Of a stretch of 64,000 bases of DNA, positions 57,341 through 64,000 are shown one piece after another (position 1 is the first letter of the stretch; each line of letters starts with the position of its first letter). The position numbers and the translations under genes are program-made. This DNA comes from Deuterostichococcus epilithicus (taxonomy: Eukaryota > Chlorophyta > Trebouxiophyceae > Prasiolales > Stichococcaceae): positions 1,922,001 to 1,986,000 of the forward strand of contig JAVTLE010000013.1 in assembly GCA_033439295.1 (NCBI GenBank). The letters are read 5' to 3'. Below the pieces are notes generated by a model that worked only from the letters and a program-made list of their open reading frames with translations, searched no databases and was not told where the DNA came from.

Positions 57341-58401
57341 ATGCCAAAGCCCGCTGGACACGGCGGTGCCCACAAGAAGGGCGGCAGACCGAAGCCTAGC
57401 CTCAGCGCGCTCAGCGGCTTTGCCTCAGCAAAGGCGTCCACGTACGACAAGCAGGCTCGGAAGCAGAAGGAGCGGGCGCTCAACAGTAAGGTCGTCAACA
57501 AGTACCGAAAGCTCAAAGCGCGGCTGCAGGCGCCGGGCGGCACAGCATTCAAGGTCCGCGGGGTGCTGGGGACCCTCTTGAAACTCGAAGACTTGACAGC
57601 TTTGCACGCTTGTGATCCCTCAGCCACACCCAATGCATGTCCAGGTCGTCAGACGGAATGAAGCACTGCCAAGCTGACACGTCGAGACGGCTGAGGTCAC
57701 GAAAATTCGATGCTTGCAGGCGGATGCCGCATCGCTGCAGCACACCGAGCGCATGAGCAATGAGGTGCAACAACGGCCGTCGCAACTGCAGCAGGAGGGT
57801 GCCGCAGCCAGCCCTGCAGGTGGGCCTCATCTTTGCCATCTGCAAGGCCATGCTGGCGCCTGGGCAGGCATAGTTGTCAGCACTGCACGCCAGGCGAACT
57901 GGAGGTGACTGATCCAACAGGCTCGCACGCAGGTGATGGTGACGAGCGCGAAGCACGCCCGGGCAAGCGGCTGAAGCATGGCGGCAAGCAGAAGCGGGTC
58001 CCGCACCTGCAGCGGATAGCCCAGGAGAAGGAGGCCGAGCGGGTGACGCTTCCAGTCCATGTCCAAGTGCTCGCGTCGTAACAGACGGGTGTCAAGATAC
58101 GGTCCATGATGCTGTGGTGAGCATACACCGGCCAACATCGTGGCTTCGGAGATTCCGAACCTGCGCCGAGCTTGCCTGCCTCTCAAAATCCAGTAGCTTG
58201 CATCACTGCCTGCGACAGGCGGAGGTGCAGCGGGAGAAGGAGGAGCGGCGGCGGGCGGCGGATGCGCGGCGGGAAGCTGCCGCCAAGGTGCAGCAGCGGC
58301 GCAAGCAGCAGTCGGCGTTGTTCCGCAAGAAGACGCGCACGGGGCAGCCGGTCATGAAGTACCGCATCGGTAAGGTGCTAGAGCAGCTGCAGAAGGCTTA
58401 G
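57341..58401 (+). CDS. FYV7-like rRNA-processing protein (198 aa)
   Basis: FYV7 acts in 18S rRNA maturation in the nucleolus. Four exons close in frame: 57341-57553, 57720-57798, 57921-58042 (or from 57933) and 58219-58401. The protein is very basic: MPKPAGHGGAHKKGGRPKPS, STYDKQARKQKERALN, KVVNKYRKLKARLQ, EARPGKRLKHGGKQKR and REKEERRRAADARREAA. It ends with KKTRTGQPVMKYRIGKVLEQ and LQKA, close to the (R)T.(R/K)GQP.M..RI..LLE.I end of the FYV7 family. The N-terminal Lys/Gly patch would serve as nuclear/nucleolar signal. The short, compositionally biased family makes the name less than certain. Confidence 0.75.
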
Positions 58402-58812: not shown

Positions 58813-60133
58813 ATGGCTCAGCTTCGTGGAGCCTTCTTGCGGCTCACAAGCCTCTCAAACTTCGCTGCTTCTTCGTCAGAGGTGACATCAACGAAGCTCC
58901 GATTCGCCACCTCCATCAGGTGGAACCCACTCCCGATGACAGAAACACCTCTTGTGATGCAGCTCAACGCGTAGAAATCTGAAACATGAAAACCGGTTCG
59001 AAACAGGGTGACGCTGGCATTGTCAGGCTCTGCACTCCGCGCAGAGCTGCGGCATTGCACCGGAAAAGGAAATGGCCTGCGTTTCCTGGCTGGTGAGCAT
59101 GGTGAATTTCAAATACAGGACCTTCGGTGCTGGCAGCCACTCTTCGGACAATGACCCAGAGGTGAGCTTCTGCTTCGGAGGGATCGGTGCATAGGCGGTA
59201 CTAGCCAGGCCCAGTTGCATGCAACTTCGAACGATCCAGCTGTTTGGCTCCGGAGTTGCTATGCTTTGGAGCTCGATTGAGCACATCGCTGCGCACTGCT
59301 ATCATATTCCGACCATGACAGGCCATGAGCCACACACACCGGGCAGTTTGCCTTGGAAGTACTCGCCACACACATCTGGCAGTTGCTCTTTAAGGTGGTT
59401 CATGTGTCTGGTCCAGGTCCTTGAGAAAGAGAAGCAGAAGAACCTGCGCGGGTGCGATTCTCTTATTGCGCACCCTCTCTTGGACTGCAGATCGGGTTTC
59501 GATGCTTCTATTTGAGAATCATGTGCATCACGAATGGTGGCAGAACATGATTCTGCAGGGAGCAGTCGTCGCCACACGTGGAAGGCTGGAACGAGGACCT
59601 GGCAAGCGACTCCGAGGCTGCGGTACGTCTCCTCTTGTTGATGTTTGCGCCAGCTCTCTGGCACCACATCATAGAACCTGTCGAAGTTTTTCAAAGTGCG
59701 ATGCAGCATTCGCCCATTTTCAGGTGAAGGCCGACCGACACGTGGCTGACGAAGACCACGATAAGCACATTGAGGATCTTCAGGACCTCTCTGAAAAGGC
59801 ACACGCAGAGGACCATGGGAAGCAGTAGCTCTGGTATGGTCACGCTTTCAAATCGGACAACAGCCAATGTCCAGCATCATTGCCACCTGCAGCTATGCAG
59901 GTAGCAGCCACCATGGACCTGCCCTGGACCTGCTCATCACGTTCATTGTATCACCACCAGGTCTTGATGTAGTCTGCTGCATATGTGTGCAGATCAAGGC
60001 GGACCGGCATGCGGACAGCCATGATGTGGAGGCGTTGATGGATCACACCGTCAAAAAAGTCTCAGAGATCCACGAGGAGAATGGCACAGTGACAACGACC
60101 AGCAAGGTTACGGAGACCTTCAAGACGGGGTGA
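58813..60133 (+). CDS. Small presequence-bearing protein, tandem family copy A (117 or 129 aa by alternative last exon)
   Basis: Exons 58813-58919, 59119-59161, 59417-59451 and 59559-59622 are followed by either 59724-59828 (exon 5a) or 59993-60133 (exon 5b); both are phase 0 with stop codons. The start sits in ACCATGG context. The N-terminus MAQLRGAFLRLTSLSNFAAS ... RFATSIR is a mitochondrial-type presequence. The mature part reads TFGAGSHSSDNDPE, VLEKEKQKNLRG, GWNEDLASDSEAA, then 5a (VKADRHVADEDHDKHIEDLQ) or 5b (IKADRHADSHDVEALMDHTV). Exon 5b resembles the last exon of copies B and C more than 5a does and gives a length (129) close to copy B. The family is not recognised; the mature protein is small, charged and probably helical. 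Function unknown. Confidence 0.78.
59724..59828 (+). other. Proximal last exon 5a of copy A
   Basis: Follows TTTTCAG, phase 0, 34 codons plus TAG. It encodes VKADRHVADEDHDKHIEDLQ and a short acidic end, and lacks the HTVK motif of the other copies. Confidence 0.7.
59993..60133 (+). other. Distal last exon 5b of copy A
   Basis: Follows GTGTGCAG, phase 0, 46 codons plus TGA. It encodes IKADRHADSHDVEALMDHTV KKVSEIHEEN and so on, aligned with the last exons of copies B and C. No exons 1-4 of its own lie in the 164 bases before it. Confidence 0.75.
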
Positions 60134-60778
60134 CGGACGCGAGCTTCCCGAACTGCAGTCCTGAGGAGGAGGTGCCTGATACGGCCGCCTGTCCCAGTTT
60201 GCTGACGGCCTCACGGCCGTCACAGTTTGCTCTCGGCTTGAGTCGGCATAAGTATCATCCCGTTTGATGGTGTCTTGGATCTTGTCGCTTGTGAACTTCC
60301 GCACCACTTGGTCATTATCGTAGTTTCTAGGCATTTCGAGATTGTCGCACCAGCATTCAGGAAGTGCAGCAAAACTGCGGCGGTGATGCATGAGTGTGTG
60401 CGGCGTTGTAGGTAACTCACGGATGTCTTTCCATGCATCCAGTATTTAGATGGCTGCAAGTTAGCCAATCGAGACCGACTGTGCGTAGATTGCTTCCCAC
60501 TTTCTTCAAAGAGGTGCGAAAGCACGTCCCCTCGGAAAGACCCAGAAATAGCATCTTTCTCGGCAGCTTCTCGCGGACTGATACAATAATGCTGCATAAA
60601 CAGGAGTGCAGAACAGATTCTGCTTGCACAACAGCTTGCTGACTCTCTCAAGAAAGCCTGTGTGCTGCGAGCTTGTCTGGGCTTCTCCCTGAGGTGCTCG
60701 TCCAGCTGTCAGCGAGACATCGGCAGATTGTTGCGTTTTGGCACAACCTTCGGCAACGTTCAAACAGCAGGTTCAACT
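60134..60778. other. Intergenic region between copies A and B
   Basis: 645 bases without a supported exon; presumably the 3' end of copy A and the promoter of copy B. No remnant of a further copy was recognised. Confidence 0.4.
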
Positions 60779-61784
60779 ATGCTGCGGGGCAGTATGATGC
60801 GGCTAAACCAGTTTACAGCGCCACTGGGCGGGTATCAGCCCGCCCCACGTCCGCTCGTGAGGTGTGCGCATGTGCGCAGATTGACTGACGGACGGCGCCG
60901 TGCAAGCCAGCGGTCTCATTGGCGCATTGCGCACATGCAGCAGCTTCGAGCGCCTTCTGGACGCATCTGAAGGACGTATGCTAGAGTGGAGAGCTCTCTA
61001 ACCTACCCATGTGGTTGTGCGCAGAACCTTTGGGTTTGGGAGCCATGCCGCGGACAATGACCCTGAGGTGAAATCCTGGTCTGCTCGATCAGGATTCAGC
61101 CAGCAAATGGGCTCAACTCAGAAGCTGACTAGACTCTGACACGTGATGCAGCCACAGAATTTTTCGAAAAGTCAGCACATTGCTGTCCACCGCCGCGATG
61201 GTTGCACTGCCCTCATGTCGGCTTTTCGTGTCCCACACCTGGCAGCAGCAACAGCACACAATCTTTGTGGCTGTCCAGATTCTCGAAAAGGAGAAGCAGA
61301 AGAACCTGAAAGGTAAGGGAGCACGAAACTTATCTCCTTTTCCTACTTGCTGACTGCTGACGCATCACCAGCGGCCAAATGGCGTCTTGCTCCGTTTCTG
61401 CAGGAGAACAGGTGTCGTCGATCAAGTCGGCGCCGGGCTGGAATGAGGCCCTGGCATCCGACAGCGAGGCTGCGGTGAGTCGCATGCGCACTTCGCAGGC
61501 TAGCTCTGCGCATGTCACTTTATAGGCACGAGGGCTGGTCGGCATTTGCGCATGGAGAGAACACAGAACAGCGTGCGAAACAGCCTACTGTGTTGACGGC
61601 GGCCTGCTGACGCCGGGCGCAGGTCAAGGCGGAGCGGCATGCCGACGACGTCGAGAGCATTGAATCGCTACAGGAGCACACGGTAAAGACGGTGCAGGAA
61701 TTGCACAACGGGCCAGACGGCGCCAAGGTTTCGAGCAGTGTCGAGGCGGAGGTCAAATCCGGGGCCGGCAGCAGCAATGCCTGA
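60779..61784 (+). CDS. Small presequence-bearing protein, tandem family copy B (130 aa)
   Basis: Five exons close in frame with the same layout as copy A: 60779-60861, 61025-61067, 61279-61312, 61404-61474 and 61623-61784. The protein begins MLRGSMMRLNQFTAPLGGYQ, a mitochondrial-type presequence. It continues TFGFGSHAADNDPE, ILEKEKQKNLKG, EQVSSIKSAPGWNEALASDS, EAAVKAERHADDVESIESLQ and EHTVKTVQELHN, ending in a Ser/Gly-rich tail. Exon 2 is exactly 43 nt in both A and B. No membrane segment or catalytic motif was seen. The GW.E.LASDSEA..KA(D/E)R core is the likely functional element; similar short motifs occur, from memory, in some plant and fungal mitochondrial proteins of unknown function. 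Confidence 0.82.
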
Positions 61785-62320
61785 TGGCCTTGCCGCTGCA
61801 TGCCGCGTGATCAGCTGCTCCATGCATGTGTGCACAGCCAATGTCTGTGGGCAGTACCGGCCGAGACATAGCGCCCGTTGATTGGCTGTCATGCGCTGCA
61901 TGCCCTAGCAGTAAGGCACGGTGGCGGGTTGCATCGGCTGTTGTTTGCCTAGGCCATTAGGGCGGGCTAAGCGTAGCTCTTAGCGGTAAACTCAGGAGCT
62001 ACCCCTTGCACTTACTAGAGGGAACGACACCCTACATGTGTGGAAGCCCTCCCCTCCTGATTGGGCTAGGTTGAAATCCAGCTTCATGAATCTACATCTA
62101 GATGCAACACGTGACACACGCGTTCATGTTCCGAAAGCAAGAATGCTCTCAGCAAGAAGAAGGTGGTGCAGTCCGTCGTGCAGACTCCGCAGTAAAGCTC
62201 CTGCAATACGCTACTGCTCGAGCCCTTCGTCCTTGCTACGAACACACCACTGCCGAGCACCCCATGAACAAGTGCCGAATGCGCCAGTAACCGAGCGCAG
62301 ACCCGCTGAGTGTTTGCAGC
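61785..62320. other. Intergenic region between copies B and C
   Basis: 536 bases with no supported exon and no visible remnant of another family member. Confidence 0.4.
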
Positions 62321-63418
62321 ATGATGGCAGGCAGTCTTCGGGGCAGTCTCATGCGCCTGTCAACCGCGGAATTTCCGGCGGTAGTATGTGCAACCCAGAT
62401 GCCATTTCAGCCGTTCAGATCTTTCGGGTTCGGCAGCCATTGCTCGGACAACAACCCAGGTCCGCGCTACTCCAGCAATCCCTTGATTCTAGGGTAGATC
62501 TGCAAGCGAGCGAGCCTTTCCGCAGCGCCTTTGTCACTGGCTCGTTGGTGCACAGCGCTGACGACCCTCTTCAGAGAAGCTCCCAACCCTGGGTACTTGC
62601 TTGAGCGCATGTAAGGCTCTTTGTCTGCCTGGCTTCACCCTGTGCCTTGATGTGTAGCCACAGTGTCTTGTGGCTGGGTGTACAGACATCATATCTCGGG
62701 AGAAGGAGCGGAACCTGCGGGGTGCGTCCTACTTCGATGAGCATCTCAATGATCAAGACCATCAGCACAGAAGGAGCAGTCATTTCTCGTGCATATGTTT
62801 TGTATGATGACATCGATCCTTTAGTATAGCTCACCCGCAGCTGCACCTTGTGAAGTTTGTGCTGCTGGTAGATTGGTGCAACGAACCCAGCCTGAGTCAA
62901 CTTTGAACTATCCAAATGCGAAGGAATTGACAAACAGTACTCAACCATCATCCCTGGCTGGTCCGAGCTGCTGGCGTCCGATTCGGAGGCTGCGGTGAGT
63001 CTTGTGAGCAGCAGGTGCTGCAGCGGCAGCCGATGCCACGAGTGTAATGGCGGCACACTGAATGACAATCATGACGGATGCAGGCTTCCAGATTGTAGTG
63101 CAACTGGTTGGTTGCAGCTTCTGTCCATATGTCTGTGAGGCATACAGGATGCCGGCTGACATGAGCAGCCCACCGCAATCATACGAATGTGCGCAGGTCA
63201 AGGCGGAGCGCTTTGTCACCGACGCCACAACCATGGAGTCGCTGCAGAAATTCACGATGCAGCTCATCCACGAGATGTACCACCAGCCAGGCGGCTCAGT
63301 GGTCAAGGTGACGCGCGTGTTCGAGCAGCAACAGCAGCAGCAGGCCGTCCGCCCGCCGCACTTTGCACCTCGCAGCAAGACCTGGGCCGCGTTCAAGATG
63401 CGAGTCATGCCGCGCTAG
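62321..63418 (+). CDS. Small presequence-bearing protein, tandem family copy C (155 aa, diverged)
   Basis: Four exons close in frame: 62321-62459, 62686-62721, 62924-62994 and 63197-63418. The first combines what are exons 1 and 2 in copies A and B, with no intron: MMAGSLRGSLMRLSTAEFPA ... FRSFGFGSHCSDNNP. Then come DIISREKERNLRG, GIDKQYSTIIPGWSELLASD, SEAAVKAERFVTDATTMESL and QKFTMQLIHEMYHQPGG. The tail is unique: a polyglutamine run (VFEQQQQQQ) and a basic end KTWAAFKMRVMPR. The distance from the Gly before the variable stretch to PGW matches copy B. The exon 3 acceptor and donor have shifted phase relative to copy A, compensated at the junctions. It is more diverged than A from B but has no break in frame. 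Confidence 0.75.
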
Positions 63419-63686: not shown

Positions 63687-64000
63687 TCAGAATACGATCG
63701 TGATCTCCTTCTTCTCCCTGCTCATCTCGAAGACCTGCATGCAGCAGGTGATGTTAGCACGCGAAGAAAGCAGCGTCGCAGCATCGGCGAACCGGGAAGT
63801 TGAAAGCGACAGGCTGGCAGTCTGTGTGCAAGTTCGTCAATACAATTTGGGATTAGGCCAGGCGCGCACCATGTCGAGGGCCTCCTGCAGCGCGACCTGC
63901 CCAAAGCGCGTCAGCCGGTTGGAGCTGATCTTCAGCTCCTTGGGTGCGCCATCCGGGTTGGCCTTCAGTGCCTGCGCGCCGTCAGTGCAGCGGCAATCAC
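63687..64000 (-). CDS. Partial gene entering from the right edge (C-terminal end, LRR-like)
   Basis: Two minus-strand exons, 63971-63870 and 63734-63687, join in phase 0. They read ALKANPDGAPKELKISSNRL, TRFGQVALQEALDM and VFEMSREKKEITIVF, then a stop. LKISSNRLTRFGQVALQEAL has the pattern of a ribonuclease-inhibitor/RanGAP-type leucine-rich repeat, but one unit is not enough for a family call. An intron begins just right of 63971, and the rest of the gene lies outside the window. Confidence 0.6.

Follow-up and report, generated by a model that had tools for sequence, protein, structure and literature searches.

We identified three adjacent, spliced genes on the same strand, A, B and C, near one end of a 64,000-nucleotide stretch of the green alga Deuterostichococcus epilithicus (the window; bases 1922001-1986000 of contig C11, in an assembly of 46.8 Mb and 21 contigs). 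Their gene structures, their paralogy and a duplicated terminal exon in A can be read in the letters themselves, and the comparisons below support taking A, B and C as three diverged paralogues of a family that carries no name in the curated libraries we searched.

An earlier note on this DNA had proposed three same-strand genes within 4.6 kb, and joining the exons by script led to the same limits: 58813 is the first base of the start codon (ATG) of A, and 63418 is the last base of the stop codon of C. It had also described in-frame splice joins, and all 12 of the modelled introns (both endings of A counted) have GT-AG borders and keep the frame, a result to be read as consistency rather than proof, since both the frame and the paralogues guided the choice of splice sites (the CGAAG acceptor of C exon 3 was selected by frame and by agreement in length with B). 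The predicted proteins have 117 residues (A with exon 5) or 129 residues (A with exon 5b), 130 residues (B) and 155 residues (C). Each motif named in the note recurs in all three translated models: LRGxxxRL, FGxGSHxxDN(D/N)P, EKxxNL(R/K)G, GWxExLASDSEAA (preceded as PGW in B and C and as EGW in A), and KA(D/E)R in the last exon. Its claim of a common exon layout is borne out in part: A and B have five exons each and C has four; C lacks intron 1, so that its presequence and FGFGSH block share one exon. The phase differs at two introns, the first intron of C being in phase 1 and the corresponding second intron of A and B in phase 0, while the intron 3′ of EKxxNLxG is in phase 2 in A and in phase 1 in B and C. 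At 63315-63418 (+), the last exon of C carries a Gln run and a basic tail (QQQQQQ...KTWAAFKMRVMPR) that are absent from A and B.

For most exons, the relation between the copies exceeds what chance produced in our controls. In a regional test, the B protein was compared with the region of A or of C and, as controls, with 200 Markov sequences, from each of which the best match was taken. Four collinear exon matches, of 38.9, 32.7, 30.4 and 26.6 bits, were obtained against the A region (best control match: mean 17.6, maximum 26.9 bits), and matches of 37.4, 35.8, 30.8 and 20.8 bits against the C region (mean 16.9, maximum 23.1 bits). The match of the tiny exon 3 lies inside the control range for both A (26.6) and C (20.8) and rests on position and frame. 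Between the copies, blastn gave 11 same-strand DNA blocks with E < 0.01; every one of the 11 overlaps a modelled exon and extends no more than 14 bases into an intron. When both strands of the whole 46.8 Mb were searched with a 35-base pattern that encodes GWxExLASDSEA, up to two mismatches being allowed, the pattern occurred at three places, namely A exon 4, B exon 4 and C exon 3, and its reversed control at one place. Adjacent same-strand copies thus related beyond chance form a tandem array.

The core is the most strongly conserved part of the proteins, with 39 of 51 residues identical between A and B, 32 of 51 between A and C and 35 of 51 between B and C, in agreement with the diverged copies that the note had described. 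In all three pairs its third codon positions are the least conserved (0.57, 0.51 and 0.59, vs. 0.69-0.80 at positions 1 and 2), a pattern as for selection on the protein. When the genome was searched with B (E <= 10), eight matches resulted; seven lie in the cluster, and the eighth, L012 (contig C10, E 0.029), has frames that lack GWxExLASDSEA and is regarded as a chance match; the searches with A and with C gave four matches each, all inside the cluster. The pattern GW-N-E-D was uninformative, occurring at five places in the genome, one of them in the cluster, with four for the control pattern; the frames at one of the places outside the cluster (L001) lack the family motif.

The earlier note did not recognise the family, and our searches gave it no name either. 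No Pfam or NCBIfam model reached its cut-off or a convincing E-value for A, B or C, no PHROGs model had a convincing E-value for B, the one copy compared with that library, and no PDB sequence was matched at E <= 10 by B or by a profile of the A/B/C core. Among the rejected candidates is Pfam PF24257 (DUF7458), which the 5b form of A matched weakly along ASDSEAAIKADR and the helix behind it (E 0.045, 14.5 bits, and E 0.088, 13.6 bits, for a cut-off of 27 bits); in the same scans this model matched neither B, nor C, nor A with exon 5, and a search of the alga's own genome found no match to it, the search controls being equally silent. A glucokinase model gave 11 bits with C, vs. 500 needed, and phrog_34970 was weak with B (E 0.088). 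The collections searched for relatives were mostly of virus and prokaryote sequences, where absence says little: 126 stretches with the peptide pattern in viral_contigs and 237 in genome_contigs included no confirmed relative, and plasmids held none at E <= 1. Literature searches found nothing on the family's motif strings or DUF7458, nor, by those topics, on algal mitochondrial proteomes or duplicated terminal exons; where one further set of terms did bring up papers, the titles listed (20 of 1,085) had no bearing on the family.

These results support a family unnamed in the curated libraries searched, which include no eukaryote protein set, and unrecognised is not the same as new. It looks like a real, uncharacterised family, and nothing so far makes the locus extraordinary; on balance we expect the family to be already catalogued, if uncharacterised. 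We also lean slightly towards a well-known eukaryotic family whose members lie outside the collections searched, the array then being an ordinary lineage-specific duplication. The collections held no eukaryote proteome, which leaves room for this explanation, and it is opposed by the silence of Pfam above its cut-offs and of the PDB sequences. In its favour, cores that resemble GW..LAS.SE..KA(D/E) may occur in small proteins of fungi and plants.

Gene A has two candidate terminal exons, 5 and 5b, whose acceptors, before 59724 and 59993, are both in phase 0 with the common donor at 59622. Exon 5b scored 93 against B exon 5 and 59 against the last exon of C (maximum of 1000 shuffles 49 in both cases). 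Exon 5 scored 47 against B exon 5 (maximum 46) and 54 against exon 5b (maximum 50), values reached by 0 of 1000 shuffles, and 31 against the last exon of C, which 6 of 1000 shuffles reached. In the regional test, exon 5b gave the best A-region match to B (38.9 bits to the last exon), vs. 21.2 bits for exon 5, inside the range of the controls (up to 26.9). Because of this difference, the terminal exons of A are probably duplicated and alternative, unless exon 5 is not real. On a plain reading of the sequence, the last exon of A would have been duplicated, with 5b keeping the family-typical ending and exon 5 diverging and becoming shorter. The gene A of the earlier note, which makes no mention of 5b, evidently ends with exon 5, the terminal exon less like the rest of the family; judged by these comparisons, that gene model needs correction, the family-typical ending being 5b.

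It is also possible, if on the unlikely side, that 5b is the single working terminal exon of A and that the stretch 59724-59828 is either a duplicate in decay or an open frame that arose by chance, with no alternative splicing. The bit scores just given fit this, as does the fact that both terminal-exon DNA blocks of A, the one with B and the one with C, fall on 5b. Exon 5, however, has its in-phase acceptor, its translation starts with VKADRH, its scores to 5b and to B exon 5 were unreached by shuffles, and its G+C is strongly uneven over codon positions 1, 2 and 3 (0.79, 0.21 and 0.66; exon 5b, 0.52, 0.39 and 0.74). Downstream of 5b, the G+C is even over the codon positions (0.54, 0.51 and 0.53). 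Just 3′ of the exon 5 stop lies a donor-like site, GT-ATGG (59834-59839, +); splicing from it to 5b would leave 5b untranslated.

The mature parts of A, B and C contain no membrane-type hydrophobic stretch (highest 19-residue mean hydropathy 0.47), one or two Trp and no or one Cys; candidate catalytic residues are few, and there was no enzyme family match. The charge-hydropathy rule classes A (whichever its ending) and B as disordered. Conservation is highest in a short acidic-basic stretch and a segment with Trp, which leads into a helix; AlphaFold, given the last exon of B and two paralogous exons, predicted a helix over residues 2-29 (predicted local distance difference test, pLDDT, by block: 69, 89 and 84), followed in the B exon by a low-confidence tail. 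Up to R-[TS]-F, the N-termini of A, B and C contain 5, 4 and 3 Arg/Lys and 1, 0 and 1 Asp/Glu, confirming the Arg-rich, acid-poor composition, typical of mitochondrial presequence proteins, that had been noted before. Directly before the core stands R-T-F-G in A and B and R-S-F-G in C, and R-x-F/Y before the mature part is a mitochondrial-type cleavage context. Judged from these N-termini, mitochondrial targeting of the three products is plausible.

Taken jointly, and with confidence somewhat short of even, these properties suggest that the genes encode a small, soluble accessory protein of an organelle, which has a presequence and a C-terminal helix and whose gene was twice duplicated in tandem; we rank the mitochondrial matrix above the chloroplast as its more likely destination. 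From targeting and docking to alternative splicing and any functional split, the steps that follow are ones we infer. A small nuclear gene for a soluble organelle protein would have undergone two tandem duplications in a green alga. The presequence would be cut near R-[TS]-F|G, releasing a largely flexible mature protein of roughly 80-120 residues, in which a charged EKEKxKNL(K/R)G stretch and the conserved GWxExLASDSEAAxKA(D/E)R segment would lead into the C-terminal helix. The conserved segment may dock on a protein partner, which would make the product an accessory or assembly-type factor rather than an enzyme. With a conserved Trp segment that leads into a helix, few candidate catalytic residues and no enzyme family match, we take docking or assembly inside an organelle as the simplest reading. 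Behind a constant docking segment, the paralogues and the two duplicated terminal exons of A would vary the helix and tail, and the duplicated C-termini may alter the cargo of the docked protein or the duration of binding. The three copies might also have subfunctions, perhaps condition-specific, as the earlier note suggested. That the family is undescribed in curated libraries and combines a constant docking segment with a C-terminal helix varied by gene and terminal-exon duplication, to yield at least four isoforms from 4.6 kb, seems to us improbable as a whole.

Several observations weigh against the organelle accessory protein. Between the terminal exons of B and C, third codon positions are more alike than first (0.62 vs. 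0.51), and the same is true between 5b and C (0.52 vs. 0.39); selection on the terminal exons is therefore not clear. The charge-hydropathy rule does not call C disordered, and the fold prediction, from three sequences and one exon, is weak (predicted template modelling score, pTM, 0.39). TGTAA, the usual green-algal poly(A) signal, follows none of the terminal exons (A exon 5, A exon 5b, B and C), and this word thus gives no help; two same-strand copies of it sit inside C introns. Lastly, the hydrophobic moment of the presequence was reached by 1544 (A), 678 (B) and 811 (C) of 2000 shuffles, meaning that the amphipathic helix is no stronger than composition predicts. Moments this ordinary speak against a classical mitochondrial presequence, or at any rate lend it no support; the earlier proposal of mitochondrial targeting gains from the cleavage context in all three copies and not from the helix.

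The products may instead go to the chloroplast stroma and serve as small accessory factors there, which we regard as unlikely. A mitochondrial presequence fits less well where N-termini show no above-chance amphipathicity, and green-algal transit peptides resemble mitochondrial presequences. Light-harvesting chlorophyll-binding domains gave 39 exon matches in the genome, from which it follows that a plastid is present; one of these exons matched 98 distinct PDB sequences at E <= 1e-20, and among the 60 of 98 listed all are light-harvesting proteins, including Lhcbm, siphonaxanthin Bry-Lhcb and plant Lhcb. Against the chloroplast stands the R-[TS]-F-G directly N-terminal to the core in all three copies, a cleavage context of mitochondrial type. 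Least of all do we credit exon 5b as the remnant of a fourth copy that lost its other exons: it sits between A and B and is closer to B than to exon 5, but its splice phase fits A exon 4, and in a window-wide search (E <= 10) 59828-60779 held no other exon-like matches, the sole extra match (like C exon 1, at 60767-60823; weak, E 6.1) being B's own exon 1 region.

The exons of the three models are listed in Table 1. Upstream, at 57943-58401 (+), lies the 3′ portion of a gene that encodes an rRNA_processing domain (PF08524, E 6.9e-10) and stops 411 bases 5′ of the A ATG, and at 63837-63998 (-) an open frame without a Pfam match runs off the end of the window (LKISSNRLTRFGQVALQEALDMVRAWPNPKLY). 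Of the 90 open frames of 180 residues or more in the window, ten further large ones were compared with Pfam and had no match at E <= 0.001, as expected because exons are short and wrong-strand frames common. Rfam gave no matches on the window, and a bacterial promoter scan upstream of A gave none, as expected for a eukaryote.

Table 1. Modelled exons of genes A, B and C, in window coordinates.
Feature	Position	Strand	Basis
Gene A exon 1 (ATG; LRGAFLRL presequence)	58813..58919	+	model; donor CAG/GTGGAA
Gene A exon 2 (TFGAGSHSSDNDPE)	59119..59161	+	model; DNA match to B exon 2
Gene A exon 3 (VLEKEKQKNLRG)	59417..59451	+	model; DNA match to B exon 3
Gene A exon 4 (EQSSPHVEGWNEDLASDSEAA)	59559..59622	+	model; genome-wide core pattern match
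Gene A candidate terminal exon 5 (VKADRHVADEDHDKHIEDLQDLSEKAHAEDHGKQ, stop)	59724..59828	+	in-phase acceptor; shuffle tests
Gene A second candidate terminal exon 5b (IKADRHADSHDVEALMDHTVKKVSEIHEENGTVTTTSKVTETFKTG, stop)	59993..60133	+	in-phase acceptor; match to B exon 5
Gene B exon 1	60779..60861	+	model
Gene B exon 2	61025..61067	+	model
Gene B exon 3	61279..61312	+	model
Gene B exon 4	61404..61474	+	model; genome-wide core pattern match
Gene B exon 5 (terminal; predicted helix, then unstructured tail)	61623..61784	+	model; AlphaFold
Gene C exon 1 (presequence and FGFGSHCSDNNP; intron 1 absent)	62321..62459	+	model
Gene C exon 2 (IISREKERNLRG)	62686..62721	+	model
Gene C exon 3 (IDKQYSTIIPGWSELLASDSEAA)	62924..62994	+	model; genome-wide core pattern match
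Gene C exon 4 (terminal; Gln run, basic tail)	63197..63418	+	model

As a general class, small soluble accessory proteins of mitochondria that carry R-3 type presequences are likewise short and hydrophilic, with an Arg-rich, acid-poor N-terminus ending in R-x-F; the Pfam and PDB searches found no sequence relation of A, B or C to a named member. For the two endings of A, the nearest likeness is Volvox cyn23, which the passages on that gene describe as having adjacent duplicated exons, one used at a time (PMC4378016). According to the same passages, the cyn23 exons are internal, equal in length and verified by RT-PCR (reverse transcription-polymerase chain reaction) (PMC4378016), whereas the candidates in A are terminal and unequal in length. 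In that account, most of the alternative splicing described for Volvox is intron retention (46.5%, vs. 9.5% exon skipping; PMC4378016). Were the locus transcribed as modelled, it would show in compact form how tandem duplication and a duplicated last exon together diversified an organelle protein; otherwise it adds another to the small, uncharacterised gene families of algae.

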